Below, piece by piece: positions 5,770-14,128 of a stretch of DNA of 64,000 nucleotides. Both the position numbers and the translations under genes were made by a program. Position 1 is the stretch's first letter. Each line of letters opens with the position of its first letter. The stretch comes from Gammaproteobacteria bacterium LSUCC0096 (GTDB lineage: Bacteria; Pseudomonadota; Gammaproteobacteria; Pseudomonadales; Litorivicinaceae). The DNA lies in contig VIEA01000001.1 in assembly GCA_008087055.1 (NCBI GenBank), positions 322,514 to 386,513 on the forward strand. The letters are read 5' to 3'. The notes below the pieces were generated by a model. It did no database searches. It was not told the origin of the DNA and was given only the letters and a program-made list of their open reading frames with translations.

Positions 5770-5810
5770 GTCGCTCCCCACCTCTAGGGTATGGAGCGAC
5801 TGACTGTTTT
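5770..5810 (+). terminator. Inverted repeat and T-run downstream of pilA, overlapping the next start codon
   Basis: GTCGCTCC (5770-5777) pairs with GGAGCGAC (5793-5800) over a 15-base loop, with TTTT at 5807-5810. This could terminate pilA transcription, but the T-run is displaced 6 bases from the stem. The ATG of the following gene (5791) sits at the edge of the loop, so the same hairpin could limit its translation. Confidence 0.45.
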
Positions 5811-6180
5811 ATACAATGACCAATGCCCGGTATGTTCATTTGAGATCGAACATTACCGGGCGTTGTGCGTTAAACGCGGTATTGATCTCGGTTTCGAGAA
5901 GATTTCAGAGAAAGGACCGATGTTGCACGAAGCGGGATTGTCCGCCACTGATGCGAAGAAGCGATTACATGTGCGTACTGGTGATGGTCAACTGAAAGTG
6001 GGTGTCGATGCGTTCTTAGCGCTCTGGGCTCAAATGCCAATCTATAAACATCTTGGACGCGTTGTCGCAATTCCAGGAATCTATCATTTGGCAGTGGTGG
6101 TGTATAACCACGTGCTCGCGCCATTACTTTTTTGGTGGGACAAGCGCCGATTACAGTGCGACGAGACTACCTGCCGCTGA
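5791..6180 (+). CDS. DCC-family (DUF393) thiol-disulfide oxidoreductase-like protein
   Basis: A 129-residue protein starting with MERLTVLYNDQCPVC: the D-x-CPxC motif (Asp10, Cys12, Cys15) defines the DUF393/DCC family, thought to be thioredoxin-like. The C-terminal half includes a hydrophobic stretch (GRVVAIPGIYHLAVVVYNHVL) and ends with another Cys (ETTCR). Function is not established in the family. The start is the only ATG before the motif and lies in a hairpin after pilA. The 3' end overlaps the convergent PAP2 gene by 30 bases. Confidence 0.8.
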   Translation: MERLTVLYNDQCPVCSFEIEHYRALCVKRGIDLGFEKISEKGPMLHEAGLSATDAKKRLHVRTGDGQLKVGVDAFLALWAQMPIYKHLGRVVAIPGIYHLAVVVYNHVLAPLLFWWDKRRLQCDETTCR

Positions 6181-6693
6181 CGCAACGAACCAGCCGATTG
6201 CTGTCGCAATTAGCACATCACTTGGGTAATGCAGTCCGAGAATAATCCGAGACAGCATGATCATCAGAGTTACAGGAACTAATAAAAGCCCCAGCAATGG
6301 AAGAACAGGTAACACGATCAAAGTGATCGTGACGGCATGGAGCGTGTGTCCGCTTGGGAAACTGTAATGATCGAGTGGGGGCGTCTTTGGGTTAATTGCT
6401 TCCCATGTTGTGCAAGGTCGATTCCTGAGGGTTTGTCCCTTGATCAACTTGTATAACCCGAGATTAAACGCACACGCACCGATCAATACGGCTGGAAGAT
6501 TGCCAGCATCTGGTGTGGTGAGACCGATAATAACAAAGAGTATGACCCAGGCAGGTCCATCACCGAGCTTTGAGAAGAATTCGAAGGTGCGGTGGACCGA
6601 AGGAATCTCCGCTAACGCATTCGCAAGCGTACATAGTGGTCTTTCAACCCGATCAAGGTGGTGAAAGAATTGCGTCCAACCAGATGTCTGCAT
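6151..6693 (-). CDS. PAP2-family lipid phosphatase
   Basis: A 180-residue integral membrane phosphatase with the three PAP2 motifs: K-x6-RP (KGQTLRNRP, about residues 85-93), PSGHT (about 113-117) and SR-x5-H-x3-D (SRIILGLHYPSD, about 150-161). Such enzymes dephosphorylate phosphatidate, phosphatidylglycerophosphate or undecaprenyl diphosphate; the sequence does not decide which. ATG 6693 has AGGGGA at 5-base spacing and is preferred to earlier starts at 6714 and 6735. It follows the GT4 gene on the same strand after 74 bases, so the two may be an operon; a phosphatidate phosphatase role would supply diacylglycerol to that enzyme. Confidence 0.87.
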   Translation of the reverse strand: MQTSGWTQFFHHLDRVERPLCTLANALAEIPSVHRTFEFFSKLGDGPAWVILFVIIGLTTPDAGNLPAVLIGACAFNLGLYKLIKGQTLRNRPCTTWEAINPKTPPLDHYSFPSGHTLHAVTITLIVLPVLPLLGLLLVPVTLMIMLSRIILGLHYPSDVLIATAIGWFVASAAGSLVAL

Positions 6694-6767
6694 GAGATTC
6701 CCCTGATCACTCATATGGCAATGGTATGAAGTCAAGGTGACGCCTTTGCGTCGGTTTCATGAACTTT

Positions 6768-7802
6768 CTATGACACTGCTTGATCTAAAAGTTCTGGTGG
6801 TGCCGGTTTCAATTGAGATGCGAATTGATCTGTACATCGCTCCCATGAAAAAGTTTCTGCGAATTCGCGACAGGCGACACGATCAACTGTTAGTGCTTTT
6901 TGAATTGACTCACCGAGGTCCTCACCAATCCAGCCGTTTTTGCCATTTTCAATCAGATCGATTGGCCCAGGCGCCGGATACGCTGCGACAGGAACCCCAG
7001 ACGCGAGTGATTCTAAAATTACCAGTCCGAACGTGTCTGTGAGTGATGGGAATACAAAACAATCTGCATCGCGCATGCACGCGGCTAATTCTTCACCGTG
7101 CTTGTAGCCTACAAATTCGACATCCGGATATTTTTCTTTGAGTTCATCAAGTTCCGGGCCGCCACCAACAACCCGTTTGATTCCGTCGCAAGGGGTCTCT
7201 AAGAATGCACCAATATTCTTTTCAGGTGCGACTCGGCCAACATACAAAAGAATGGGTGTTTTGGACGTTGGCCTATCGTGATCTGGTGTAAATAACTCAA
7301 GGTCTACCCCACGAGACCACCGACCAATATTTTTAAACCCTCGTTCGATCAGCTCGTTTTCCATCGACTGGGTCGCGACCAACATCCGATGCGCGGGACC
7401 ATGGAACCATCGCAAAAACGCATAAGACCAGCTGACAGGAATCGGAACTCTCAGGCGAACATATTCTGGGAAGCGGGTGTGATAACTGGTGGTAAATGGC
7501 AGCCGATTTCTGCGACACCAGCGTCTTGCCGCCAAACCAAGCGGGCCCTCTGTTGCAATATGCACAGCATCTGGCTTGAGTGTGGTCAGTCTTTTTTTGA
7601 CTGAGCGCGCAGCAAATAAAGCCAGTCTGATTTCTGGATATGTTGGACAGGGGACAGAGCGATATCCTTCTGGACTGATAACCTCAACGCGATGTCCACG
7701 TTTTTCGAGTTCTGATTTGGTTCTGGAGAGCGTTCTAACGACTCCATTAACCTGTGGAAACCACGCGTCTGTCACGATAGCAATAGTGTTTGGAGCTGTC
7801 AT
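6768..7802 (-). CDS. GT4-family glycosyltransferase, probably a diacylglycerol/lipid glycosyltransferase
   Basis: A 344-residue two-domain GT-B enzyme. The N-terminus (IAIVTDAWFPQVNGVVRTL) and the segments CPTYPEIRLAL, HIATEGPLGLAAR and SYHTRFPEY are those of the group containing Agt, the glycosyltransferase that makes glycolipids in phosphate-starved marine bacteria; this is recognised by eye. The nucleotide-sugar site is visible as LYVGRVAPEKN and PSLTDTFGLVILESLASGVPV. ATG 7802 is preceded by AAAGGGTAG. The promoter region contains a PhoB-like repeat array with a matching -10 element. Substrate and sugar cannot be read from the sequence. Confidence 0.85.
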   Translation of the reverse strand: MTAPNTIAIVTDAWFPQVNGVVRTLSRTKSELEKRGHRVEVISPEGYRSVPCPTYPEIRLALFAARSVKKRLTTLKPDAVHIATEGPLGLAARRWCRRNRLPFTTSYHTRFPEYVRLRVPIPVSWSYAFLRWFHGPAHRMLVATQSMENELIERGFKNIGRWSRGVDLELFTPDHDRPTSKTPILLYVGRVAPEKNIGAFLETPCDGIKRVVGGGPELDELKEKYPDVEFVGYKHGEELAACMRDADCFVFPSLTDTFGLVILESLASGVPVAAYPAPGPIDLIENGKNGWIGEDLGESIQKALTVDRVACREFAETFSWERCTDQFASQLKPAPPELLDQAVS

Positions 7803-7824
7803 ATCTACCCTTTGCGTTTTACAC

Positions 7825-7858
7825 CTTATATGACGCTTGTATTGCATTTGTATGACAC
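7825..7858 (-). promoter_or_regulatory. Putative PhoB-box array and -10 element for the GT4-PAP2 operon
   Basis: Read on the minus strand, three 11-bp repeats follow each other: GTGTCAT-ACAA, ATGCAAT-ACAA, GCGTCAT-AT (7858 down to 7830). The 7+4 spacing is the Pho box architecture and GTGTCAT matches CTGTCAT in 6 of 7 bases. Ten bases after the first two half-sites comes TATAAG (7830-7825), 5 of 6 to the sigma-70 -10 element and at the distance seen in phoA-type promoters. The third half-site overlaps the -10 by one base. The predicted transcript starts about 16 bases before the ATG. Confidence 0.6.
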
Positions 7859-7898
7859 GAAAAGTTGTTTTTGAGTGTTATATCTATGGTTCGAGAGA

Positions 7899-7927
7899 CC
7901 GTAACGAAACTGTCATCATTCGTTCAT
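7899..7927 (+). promoter_or_regulatory. Putative PhoB-box array upstream of olsB-olsA
   Basis: Three 7-base half-sites with 4-base spacers on the plus strand: CCGTAAC-GAAA-CTGTCAT-CATT-CGTTCAT. The middle half-site is the exact consensus CTGTCAT; the others match in 6 and 5 of 7 positions. The array is 54 bases upstream of the olsB ATG. No convincing -10 element at the expected distance was found, only weak candidates around 7938-7948. Confidence 0.55.
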
Positions 7928-7980
7928 CGAACCGTCTTTCTCGATTCTTAAACTGCAAAAAACTATCAAAGGAACGATGC

Positions 7981-8775
7981 ATGTTGATGGCAGAACTTAA
8001 CCGAAGCCAAGGCTTCTCGGTTCGTTTGGCAACCACTCCAGAGGAAATTGAAAAAACGCAACGCCTTCGTTATGACGTTTTTGCAGGGGAAATGGGCGCG
8101 AAGGTCCATACGATCAAACCTGGCGTTGAGTTTGATGACTTTGACCCATATTGCGAGCATCTGTTAGTCGAAGAGCTTGAGACCGGGCGTATTGTTGCCT
8201 CGACACGGTTACTTCGAAAAGACGCCGCTAAAACCATCGGGCATTTTTACTCCGAGTCAGAGTTTTCAGCTGGTTTCATCAGTAGCCTCGATGGTGAAGT
8301 GGTCGAACTGGGACGTACCTGCGTTCATGTCGATTTTCGTTCGGGCGGCGGCATCATGCTGTTGTGGAGCGGTATTGCTCAACTAATGAAGCGATGGGAT
8401 ATTGATTATTTGCTTGGTTGCGCAAGTGTTCCATGCCGTGATGATGGTCAGCTTGTTCAAACATTGATGAGTGGATTGCGTACGAAGCATCTGAGTCCGG
8501 AGACGCTGCGAGCGGAGCCTCGCGTGCCGGTTGCTGCACTCTCTGGAAAAGAAGTAGATGGTGCGATCATGCCGCCTCTTCTAAAGGCGTATTTGCGTTT
8601 AGGTGCATGGGTCTGTGGCGAGCCAAGTTTGGATGAGGAGTTTGGTGTTGCTGACTTGATGGTGCTTTTGGATATGCGCCAATTAAACCATCGCTATTTC
8701 AAACACTTCTTGGGTCGTGAGTCTAAAGCTGCTGATCAGGTTGGAAAGCCTCAAGAGGTTGCAATTACAGCATGA
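7981..8775 (+). CDS. olsB: Ornithine lipid synthesis N-acyltransferase OlsB
   Basis: A 264-residue GNAT-fold acyltransferase of the OlsB (hemolysin-like) family. OlsB transfers a 3-hydroxyacyl group from ACP to the alpha-amino group of ornithine, giving lyso-ornithine lipid. Recognisable segments are TQRLRYDVFAGEMGA, EHLLV, VASTRLL, VELGRTCVH and LLGCASVP. The open frame reaches back to 7837 across the Pho-like repeats; ATG 7981 with AAAGGA at 7 bases is the likely start. Its stop overlaps the olsA start as ATGA, the usual olsBA arrangement. Confidence 0.9.
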   Translation: MLMAELNRSQGFSVRLATTPEEIEKTQRLRYDVFAGEMGAKVHTIKPGVEFDDFDPYCEHLLVEELETGRIVASTRLLRKDAAKTIGHFYSESEFSAGFISSLDGEVVELGRTCVHVDFRSGGGIMLLWSGIAQLMKRWDIDYLLGCASVPCRDDGQLVQTLMSGLRTKHLSPETLRAEPRVPVAALSGKEVDGAIMPPLLKAYLRLGAWVCGEPSLDEEFGVADLMVLLDMRQLNHRYFKHFLGRESKAADQVGKPQEVAITA

Positions 8776-9536
8776 AACTTATCCGTATCATCCTTCACAT
8801 GCTGCGTGGCATGTGGACCCTTAAGCGACTTGAGGCGCGAAATGATGCACGTCTGGCACGTCGCAAAGTGCAGCTATGGCATCGAAAAGCATTGCATCTG
8901 TTTGGTCTTGAGCGGATTTTGGTTGGCGATATTCCAAAAGGCCCCTGCTTGATTGTTTCGAACCATCTGTCATGGATTGATATTCTGGTTATCGGTTCAC
9001 TGATGAATGTTCGTTTCTTGTCGAAAGCTGAGGTATCGAGTTGGCCGATCGTGGGCAAGTTAGCGAAAGGTGCGGGTACATTATTCGTCCATCGCGGCGA
9101 TCGTCGCTCAGCTGAAATTGCACTTCAAGACATCGAGGTAGCATTGAGGCAAGGCGATCAAGTGGTCGTGTTCCCTGAAGGCACTTCCACACGTGGTCCG
9201 ATGCCGATTAAATTTAGGAGTCGTTTAATTGAGGCTGCTCGTCGAGCGGGCGTCCCAATTATCCCAATGGCTTTGAGTTATCACGGACCGGGTAAATCGT
9301 TTGCATCGTATGCGGGTGATGACGATTTTGTCTCTCACATGACTCGGTTGAGTGAGGCGCCATTTATTCGTGGTCGTGTTGCAGTTGGCTCAGCCATCGA
9401 GCCGACAGAGCCTGCCGCGGTCATCGCGCGCCAGGCACAGCTAAATGTCGAATCGATGCTAGAAATGGTGGTTTGTGAAGAGCGAGAGATCCAGTCAGTT
9501 GGATCGGTCGCCGATCTAGCAACTACGGCGAACTGA
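8772..9536 (+). CDS. olsA: Lyso-ornithine lipid O-acyltransferase OlsA (PlsC family)
   Basis: A 254-residue membrane-associated acyltransferase with the PlsC motifs: NHLSWID (motif I, H-x4-D), VHRGDRR, and FPEGTSTRG (motif III). As the partner of olsB it should add the second acyl chain to lyso-ornithine lipid; a general 1-acyl-glycerol-3-phosphate acyltransferase activity is possible as well. A short hydrophobic/basic N-terminal helix could anchor it at the inner membrane. Coupled to olsB by ATGA; the end overlaps the convergent asparaginase gene by 21 bases. Confidence 0.9.
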   Translation: MKLIRIILHMLRGMWTLKRLEARNDARLARRKVQLWHRKALHLFGLERILVGDIPKGPCLIVSNHLSWIDILVIGSLMNVRFLSKAEVSSWPIVGKLAKGAGTLFVHRGDRRSAEIALQDIEVALRQGDQVVVFPEGTSTRGPMPIKFRSRLIEAARRAGVPIIPMALSYHGPGKSFASYAGDDDFVSHMTRLSEAPFIRGRVAVGSAIEPTEPAAVIARQAQLNVESMLEMVVCEEREIQSVGSVADLATTAN

Positions 9537-13483: not shown

Positions 13484-14128
13484 CTAATTTGTTGGAGGCA
13501 ATACATGGTCGTTAATGATTGGAAAGCAGCGCGCATCCTTTGGTTGATAACGAGGCCCACCTGAAAATCCAGTGAATGCGGGTAGAAGCAGCACTCGTTG
13601 ATCTTTGATAGCGAAACAAGGGCAGACCAAATGATCAGATGCTGTCTTGAATTCAACCTGTGGATGAATATGCCCAGCTATACGAAAGGCCGATCCGTCG
13701 TCAGGATGATGGGCCAATTCGATGTCGTTCCAACGCGTTGGCTCAGGTTCGATAGAGAAACCCAGAGCGGATGCAAAAGGTTCTGCTTGTCGATCGTGAT
13801 TGCCTAGAATTACCTTGAATTCAGTTCCGAGAGACAGAAGTGTGCTTTGCCAACGCTGCATTTGTGTTTCGGTGATTGAGCGCGGTTCGTGAAATAGATC
13901 ACCGAGAACCCAAACAGTTGTGGCTTGTGTCTCTATGATCGCTTTGACGAAGCGTTCCAAATCGGAGATCTCGCTCGCCTCAGGAACTGGAATGCCAGCC
14001 TGCCTAAAATGTGCTCCTTTACCCAGGTGAAGATCGCTTAAAAAAAGGGTCTGCGTTTCTTGATGCCATAGGGTTCGATCAGCTCGTGCGATGAATTCCA
14101 ACTGGCCAAATTCAAGATGCTGCATCAA
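13484..14128 (-). CDS. pdeM: Ligase-associated metallophosphoesterase PdeM
   Basis: A 214-residue calcineurin-like phosphoesterase with the dimetal motifs in order: DLHLGKG (about residue 32), GDLFHEP, GNHD and GHIHP. Together with the adjacent helicase, ATP-dependent ligase and exonuclease it forms the conserved set named ligase-associated DNA damage response genes. PdeM is expected to cleave phosphodiester bonds at DNA ends. Its start overlaps the helicase stop by 17 bases. Confidence 0.88.
   Translation of the reverse strand: MMQHLEFGQLEFIARADRTLWHQETQTLFLSDLHLGKGAHFRQAGIPVPEASEISDLERFVKAIIETQATTVWVLGDLFHEPRSITETQMQRWQSTLLSLGTEFKVILGNHDRQAEPFASALGFSIEPEPTRWNDIELAHHPDDGSAFRIAGHIHPQVEFKTASDHLVCPCFAIKDQRVLLLPAFTGFSGGPRYQPKDARCFPIINDHVLPPTN

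Follow-up and report, generated by a model that had tools for sequence, protein, structure and literature searches.

PlcP is used as a marker gene for phosphorus-saving lipid remodeling in ocean metagenomes. Diacylglycerol is described as coming either from dephosphorylation of phosphatidate or from PlcP; the latter is considered the probable main source in marine heterotrophs, and phosphatidate phosphatases are suggested for cyanobacteria (PMC4796936). The PlcP-Agt systems reported for SAR11 (PlcP/GTcp), Pseudomonas aeruginosa (PA3219-PA3218), and Phaeobacter (PlcP) follow a logic of glycolipid for phospholipid (PMC4796936, PMC8528852, PMC8231724). P. aeruginosa Agt1 and Agt2 are reported to make monoglucosyldiacylglycerol (MGDG) and glucuronic acid diacylglycerol (GADG), respectively, in Escherichia coli, and a second diacylglycerol source was noted on deletion of plcP in P. 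aeruginosa (PMC8528852). Here we analyze a 64,000-nucleotide stretch of DNA (the window; contig VIEA01000001.1, positions 322,514 to 386,513) from LSUCC0096, 'Candidatus Halomarinus pommedorensis' of the OM252 clade of marine Gammaproteobacteria, which is a cultured isolate (PMC8269220). In this window, a gene for a PAP2 membrane phosphatase stands beside a gene for an Agt-like glycosyltransferase of family 4 (GT4), and the pair is head-to-head with olsB- and olsA-like genes.

We propose, with a probability of roughly 0.65, that the PAP2 protein makes diacylglycerol for the Agt-like enzyme and that the locus forms a compact cassette, probably under PhoB control, from which phosphorus-free lipids of two kinds would be made; a variant of the known PlcP-Agt route is the best reading. 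PAP2 would remove phosphate from phosphatidate, and possibly also from phosphatidylglycerophosphate (PGP), at the inner membrane, yielding diacylglycerol and free phosphate. The cytosolic GT4 would then add a sugar to the diacylglycerol, glucose or glucuronate by analogy, and the product of OlsB and OlsA would be an acylated amino acid lipid, most likely ornithine lipid. PAP2 would in this way take the place of PlcP as the diacylglycerol source, so that fresh phosphatidate, and not broken-down phospholipid, would feed the glycolipid. The sequence comparisons described below point to PAP2 as a dedicated enzyme of the phosphatidate-dephosphorylation route in LSUCC0096 and in other Gammaproteobacteria.

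The locus resembles the reported PlcP-Agt systems in its Agt1-type GT4, in the catalytic site of that enzyme, and in its Pho-box-like promoter, but its phosphatase partner is PAP2, olsBA lies head-to-head with the pair, and no PlcP-like gene was found in the genome. Agt2 of P. aeruginosa (PA0842) is a related GT4, whereas the window GT4 is of the Agt1 type, and the P. aeruginosa gene that we read as Agt2 has plcR and a gene for phospholipase C as neighbors, with no PAP2 annotated in the 3-kb flanks. As in OlsB-OlsA ornithine lipid synthesis, the two acyltransferase genes overlap, belong to the right families, and are in the right order; unlike in that system, the window proteins score under the curated cutoffs and the intergenic region is shared with the PAP2-Agt pair. 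With lipid phosphatases of the PgpB/LpxE/PAP2 kind, the window PAP2 shares the fold and three catalytic motifs, albeit scoring under all of their NCBIfam cutoffs. Searches of open-licence literature other than preprints yielded no report of PAP2 paired with Agt in bacteria.

The LSUCC0096 genome (G000) comprises 1,935,310 bases in 4 contigs, of which C1 accounts for 1,442,657. The four genes were found where the preliminary description had placed them, with all open reading frames (ORFs) open and carrying Pfam domains of the PAP2, GT4, OlsB, and OlsA families (Table 1), and the head-to-head arrangement was confirmed, with the reverse pair at 6151 to 7847 and the forward pair at 7981 to 9536. 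The true starts likely lie inside the listed ORFs, at ATG codons at 7981 for OlsB, 7802 for GT4, and 6714 or 6693 for PAP2. These predictions are based on the ORFs of the window and of congeners, and the listed PAP2 ORF begins at TTG. If GT4 begins at 7802, the GT4-olsB gap measures 178 bp. The olsB and olsA genes, in that order, overlap by 4 bases, and OlsB and OlsA are the best NCBIfam equivalogs for their respective ORFs (166.3 bits versus a curated cutoff of 350 and 119.3 bits versus 300).

Table 1. Positions of genes and Pho-box-like arrays at the locus, numbered from the first letter of the window
Feature	Position	Strand	Evidence
PAP2 membrane phosphatase	6151..6735	-	Pfam PF01569 (PAP2) E 1.5e-18
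Weak Pho-box-like stretch between GT4 and PAP2, not significant	6737..6776	-	4-unit score 15.5
Agt1-type GT4 glycosyltransferase	6768..7847	-	Glyco_transf_4 E 4.1e-25; Glycos_transf_1 E 1.2e-20
Pho-box-like array, 3 units, 11-bp spacing, toward GT4-PAP2	7830..7858	-	3-unit score 13.5, joint second in 64 kb
Pho-box-like array, 4 units, 11-bp spacing, toward olsBA	7899..7938	+	Top 3-unit and 4-unit score in 64 kb
OlsB-like N-acyltransferase (lyso-aminolipid synthesis, predicted)	7981..8775	+	Acetyltransf_5 PF13444 E 1.4e-29; NCBIfam OlsB E 1.1e-48, under cutoff
OlsA-like O-acyltransferase	8772..9536	+	Acyltransferase PF01553 E 2.8e-26; NCBIfam OlsA E 1.5e-34, under cutoff

The GT4 had been called Agt-like, and several comparisons bear this out. 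Its nearest relative of a characterized kind is a P. aeruginosa glycosyltransferase encoded downstream of a PlcP-like gene, to which it is 48.5% identical, and it is 32.7% identical to another that lies beside plcR. We read the first of these, a plasmid-borne pair whose two genes overlap, as PA3219-PA3218 (Agt1), judging from its position near azoR3, and the second as PA0842/Agt2. The same type of PlcP-like/glycosyltransferase pair is present on plasmids of Sphingomonas and Roseomonas, with glycosyltransferases 53% and 50% identical to the window GT4, respectively. In a tree, the Agt1 and Agt2 sets were separated by a branch with 100/100 support, and the window GT4 fell on the Agt1 side. The protein carries GRVAPEKN and FPSLTDTFG motifs, and its residues H123, R179, D271, and W335 (ORF numbering) match, with similar spacing, H104, R163, D256, and W320 of SAR11 GTcp, whose catalytic and contact residues, including a catalytic Asp rather than Glu, have been reported (PMC8231724). 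That the GT4 glycosylates something other than a lipid, for instance a polysaccharide precursor, is very improbable: the family is broad and the window protein weakly matches many GT4 models in NCBIfam, but it groups with Agt1, has the Asp-type catalytic site and diacylglycerol-contact residues of GTcp, and is encoded alongside PAP2 and OlsBA, joined in congeners by a PlcP-like gene.

We searched for PlcP with a congener gene (G003, L054:13440-14219) as the query, "PlcP" being our inferred label for a gene that is not a characterized PlcP. The query is 54% identical to the gene preceding the P. aeruginosa glycosyltransferase, adjoins Agt in several genomes, and reaches 43 of 134 bits on an LpxH-type NCBIfam model. 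A plcP gene elsewhere in the genome, which the preliminary description had left to be checked, was not found in G000 with this query at E 1e-5; matches were obtained in 44 of the 115 genomes compared, 34 of them at E ≤ 1e-50. The five Metallophos matches in G000 at E ≤ 10 were assigned by eye to ApaH, two PrpE-like proteins, LpxH, and the 5'-nucleotidase type, with no PlcP in this incomplete list.

Among the matches listed, 25 genomes carry a GT4 match at E ≤ 1e-34. A PlcP match (E ≤ 1e-50) was present in 11 of them, an Agt-linked PAP2 in 20, and at least one of the two in 24, which is what two alternative diacylglycerol sources would predict. Fourteen of the 25 lack a strong PlcP match, and 13 of these 14 have an Agt-linked PAP2, G013 being counted as positive on the first 26 residues before a contig end. 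The exception is G006, where the contig breaks off 99 bp from GT4 in the direction of PAP2. The five genomes without a linked PAP2 are G006 and four that have PlcP (G032, G045, G070, and G083). In this comparison, the genomes of the LSUCC0096 genus are not independent of one another, and PAP2 linkage was found via Agt.

Within the genus, PAP2 tracks both GT4 and OlsB. Across 22 genomes, GT4 and PAP2 are both present in 10, GT4 alone in 1, PAP2 alone in 2, and neither in 9 (P = 0.002); the corresponding counts for GT4 and OlsB are 11, 0, 2, and 9 (P = 0.0002). These genomes are kin, and the P values are uncorrected for descent. The GT4-only genome is interrupted at a contig end, as is one of the PAP2-only genomes, the other holding a fragment. 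Eight of the 22 genomes (G004, G007, G009, G014, G016, G017, G018, and G021) had no PAP2, no OlsB, no strong GT4 match, and no strong PlcP match; completeness is 98% for G004 and G009 and 56 to 87% for the other six.

The congener loci are of three types. Type A (G000, G001, and G008) has the order pilA, DCC1-like gene, PAP2, GT4, olsB, olsA, and asparaginase-type gene. In type B (G010, G020, and G006, with G013 split over two contigs), GT4 is separated from olsBA by an HD-domain phosphonate gene, the phn genes, and three others. Pfam identified PhnG, PhnH, PhnI, and PhnJ in the phn operon of G010, in which PhnK and PhnL are ABC ATPases named by position; PhnG was not called in G006. In G002 and G005, phn-olsBA is visible and the GT4 side lies beyond the contig. 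Type C (G003, G012, and one G019 locus) comprises ppk, ppx, phoB, PAP2, GT4, olsB, olsA, dgkA, and the PlcP-like gene; domains were scanned in G003, and G012 and G019 were assigned by clustering. The left half of the G015 locus is as in type C, and its contig ends after olsB. In G000 itself, PhoB, PhoR, PhoU, ppk, ppx, and a pstS-type gene are grouped on contig C2.

Type B loci place phosphonate use and lipid saving in one island. Their carbon-phosphorus (C-P) lyase operon, headed by the HD-domain phosphonate gene, either separates GT4 from olsBA or adjoins olsBA (L146 6319-13828, L151 4213-11692, L148 6833-14282, and L150 9669-16811). Type C resembles the phosphate-related genomic islands reported for HIMB59, which are flexible marine islands with pst, phoRB, ppk, ppx, diacylglycerol kinase, 'LpxH', and glycosyltransferase genes (PMC10734472). 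Those islands differ in belonging to Alphaproteobacteria, and the words PAP2, PlcP, and ornithine are absent from the text of that report as available. Two congeners showed irregular copies. In G011 (L154 412-717), PAP2 is represented by a C-terminal fragment alone, and GT4, OlsB, and PhoB gave no strong match; this picture suggests either a decaying remnant of a lost cassette or an incomplete genome (88%). G019 has two PAP2-GT4 copies (L052 9393-10472 and L055 5133-6925), the GT4 of one being split by a stop into two ORFs while its PAP2 is open; either duplication or a mixed assembly would account for them.

The pairing extends beyond the genus. We ranked 51 PAP2 matches from the 115 genomes, leaving aside the genus and the weakest matches listed (G092, G057, and G043), and scored them against PlcP matches outside the genus at E ≤ 1e-50 and the 23 stronger non-genus GT4 matches among those listed, so that weak GT4 neighbors may be missed. 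All of the 11 best PAP2 matches lie within 450 bp of Agt1, Agt2, or PlcP. None of the next 12 lies within 20 kb of a scored Agt or PlcP match, and among all 40 PAP2 matches ranked below the best 11, five are near PlcP, two of them at up to 1.3 kb and the other three at up to 6 kb. In a 37-sequence PAP2 tree, the 20 linked sequences made up one side of a branch with 100/100 support.

A survey of named genomes covered the best 80 of at least 518 relatives, with neighbors labeled by their best BLAST matches within 1.2 kb. A clear Agt1 or Agt2 neighbor was found at 39 of the 80 loci: 34 have a glycosyltransferase at least 38% identical to Agt2, making this the commonest clear partner, and 5 have one at least 50% identical to the window GT4, including L180 and L181, which carry the same PAP2 sequences as G010 and G003. 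Clear PAP2-Agt loci occur in Marinobacter, Allochromatium, Ectothiorhodospira, Lysobacter, Xanthomonas, and Acinetobacter and in betaproteobacterial records from Sideroxydans and Burkholderiales. OlsB lies within 5 kb at 6 of the 80 loci. Separate runs of these genes are present in Allochromatium humboldtianum (L193; olsB-olsA-Agt2-PAP2) and 'Candidatus Contendobacter' (L218; Agt2-PAP2-olsB-olsA, with a PlcP-like gene 3 kb away), and L234 has PPK, Agt1, PlcP, PAP2, DgkA, and PhoB matches within 10.5 kb. The PAP2, Agt, OlsB, and OlsA families have probably been assembled more than once. The idea that the PAP2-GT4 pair is peculiar to LSUCC0096 was rejected, as the pair recurs in the genus, in the wider genomes, and in the survey; the genome survey suggested in the preliminary description revealed a recurring module.

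Addition of 55 survey sequences gave a 92-sequence tree in which the window PAP2 falls on the 75-sequence side of a 100/100 branch, with 17 sequences opposite. For the other 25 survey loci, no PAP2 ORF of fitting size was called. All 55 added sequences fall on the window side. Of these, 30 adjoin Agt1 or Agt2, 11 have a weak GT4 match nearby, and 14 have no neighbor of either kind, so that 50 of the 75 sequences on that side are beside Agt1, Agt2, or PlcP and the remainder consists of these 11 and 14. A PAP2 clade made only of Agt or PlcP neighbors, as had appeared at 37 sequences, was therefore refuted by the 14 of 55 added sequences that lack such a neighbor. On the opposite side, 12 of the 17 sequences have another kind of glycosyltransferase no more than 64 bp away, which is of the PF13528 type in the two scanned, so that PAP2 is paired with three kinds of glycosyltransferase. 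This second group (L171 4385-5994, L175 4259-5997, L163 5975-7556, and 9 more loci), which sometimes lies beside dgkA or 1 to 6 kb from PlcP, is possibly another glycolipid route.

Pho boxes consist of CTGTCAT-like units at 11-bp spacing. We scanned both strands of the 64 kb for three such units, using a consensus from general knowledge, and the three top 3-unit arrays all fell in the GT4-olsB gap, within the two arrays listed for it in Table 1. Twelve first-order Markov copies of the window gave 0 to 2 matches each at the score of these arrays, and the top 4-unit score (17.5, in the gap) exceeded the best of every copy (15.0 to 16.5). The stretch between GT4 and PAP2 was equaled or beaten by the best of 11 of the 12 copies. 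Type A and type C congeners retain the olsB-side array, and G020 and G006 have a stronger three-unit array toward GT4. Across 11 loci, single-locus background chances ranged from 0.002 to 0.06, the background including the loci themselves. The shared Pho-like control that had been put forward thus agrees with predicted sites on both strands of the gap, and the locus is probably PhoB controlled. The pstS and phoB promoters of G000, considered as a strong positive control, were dropped owing to their low scores (10.5 to 11 in the same scan; two 11-bp units with TGTAA).

The KX6RP, PSGH, and SRX5H motifs are all intact in the window PAP2. Folding from the single sequence gave a predicted local distance difference test score (pLDDT) of only 51.6, and we therefore used an AlphaFold2 model built from a 36-sequence alignment (mean pLDDT, 92.3), which is a membrane-type helix bundle. 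Its closest Protein Data Bank structures are Bacillus subtilis PgpB (5jki), Aquifex aeolicus LpxE (6ebu), and E. coli PgpB, and the modeled protein is LpxE/PgpB-like by fold. The window PAP2 scores under every cutoff of the PgpB, SepP, UppP-type, and LpxE models of NCBIfam (SepP, 42.6 of 250 bits; PgpB, 41.4 of 261; LpxE, 18.8 of 177).

The alternative that survives best, albeit as an unlikely one, is that PAP2 dephosphorylates lipid A in the manner of LpxE, saving outer-membrane phosphate, with the diacylglycerol for Agt coming from elsewhere, for example, from MdoB/OpgB-type head-group transfer. The top template modeling score (TM-score) of the model was obtained with A. aeolicus LpxE (0.71/0.82; root mean square deviation, 2.2), and a profile of the 36 relatives ranked LpxE best among solved structures (E 6e-16). 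However, the NCBIfam LpxE model matches only 8 of the 36 relatives at E 1e-5 and gives the window protein the low score cited above, and the genes found linked to PAP2 encode PlcP or diacylglycerol glycosyltransferases from two clades, in analyses that included no search for lipid A genes nearby.

Marginally less likely still is a general phosphatase for PGP or undecaprenyl diphosphate that merely adjoins Agt. All 36 relatives are weakly similar to the SepP and PgpB models, and the 14 of 75 clade members without an Agt or GT4-type neighbor would fit such a role. The window PAP2 is the single PF01569 match in G000, but this genome also encodes separate UppP, PgpA, and DgkA proteins; given UppP and PgpA, PAP2 is not the sole possible phosphatase for undecaprenyl diphosphate or PGP, and a role as the only one was rejected. 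The objection raised in the preliminary description, a PAP2 specific for undecaprenyl diphosphate, is weakened accordingly. Moreover, two congeners that are 98% complete, G004 and G009, gave no PAP2 match, and the enzyme tracks GT4 and OlsB in the genus. We consider it improbable that PAP2 scavenges phosphate from outside lipids or esters as an independent Pho-regulon phosphatase beside a lipid gene. Class A acid phosphatases have the same fold as the model, and phosphorus-scavenging genes occupy the same locus in congeners, but the predicted membrane-type bundle and the repeated pairing with Agt argue against it.

Several observations weigh against a dedicated PAP2-Agt diacylglycerol route. 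Sequence cannot fix the PAP2 substrate, and the best TM-score belongs to LpxE, an enzyme that acts on the 1-phosphate of lipid A; the substrates and products proposed here, the flux between them, and the response to phosphate starvation are inferred. PAP2 enzymes of the LpxE/PgpB-like fold work at the periplasmic face. With PAP2 periplasmic and GT4 cytosolic, diacylglycerol would have to flip. Since OlsB and OlsA score under their curated cutoffs, the amino acid of the aminolipid is unsure. The site of GTcp Arg163 is Lys in P. aeruginosa Agt1, the low scores of the pstS and phoB promoters imply that our Pho motif model is rough, and the Metallophos list for G000 is incomplete, lacking the known member PdeM (window 13484-14128). 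In the survey, 25 of 80 loci have no Agt or PlcP within 1.2 kb, the neighbors of these falling into many small clusters, and 16 of 80 have only a weak GT4-family match (27 to 30% identical to either Agt). The 14 neighborless sequences on the window side of the tree imply that the clade is not reserved for Agt partners, which lowered our confidence. Finally, at three congener loci (G003, G012, and G019) the PlcP-like gene lies beside PAP2-GT4-olsBA, a fourth being cut by a contig end, and the type C run includes dgkA, which would return diacylglycerol to phosphatidate. The pairing with PAP2 rather than PlcP stated in the preliminary description therefore held for LSUCC0096, in which no PlcP-like gene was found, and failed for these congeners, which have both. 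A simple replacement of PlcP by PAP2 was rejected on this ground, and PAP2 is better viewed as an additional or alternative diacylglycerol source.

A wider proposal, to which we give slightly less than an even chance, is that PAP2-Agt constitutes a second, PlcP-independent feed of glycolipid synthesis across Gammaproteobacteria and some Betaproteobacteria. Members of one PAP2 clade would use new phosphatidate ("avoid phospholipid"), whereas PlcP would strip old phospholipid ("renovate"); the two sources would be swapped or combined across Agt1 and Agt2, with olsBA, phn, and phoB-ppk-ppx gathering into movable phosphorus-economy islands. If PAP2-Agt does the same work as PlcP-Agt, plcP-based counts would overlook bacteria like LSUCC0096, whose genome yielded no plcP. 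The pair would then also offer a concrete type of candidate for the second diacylglycerol source in P. aeruginosa, though the Agt2 stretch there has no adjoining PAP2. Since LSUCC0096 has been isolated in culture (PMC8269220), the PAP2-Agt reading can be tested directly in the strain itself.

Three further gene arrangements were observed. A DCC1-like thiol-disulfide gene (window 5791-6180) is convergent with PAP2, overlaps its 3' end by 30 bases, and is a neighbor in types A and B as well. PPK and PPX matches lie beside Agt2-PAP2 in Xanthomonas and Lysobacter records (L254 1-5704, L190, and L257). At L165 5302-7872, L166 4999-7607, and L167 8870-11403, a PlcP-like gene lies beside a gene for a weakly OlsB-like protein of 568 to 577 amino acids, possibly OlsF, which would give pairs of PlcP and an aminolipid synthase.

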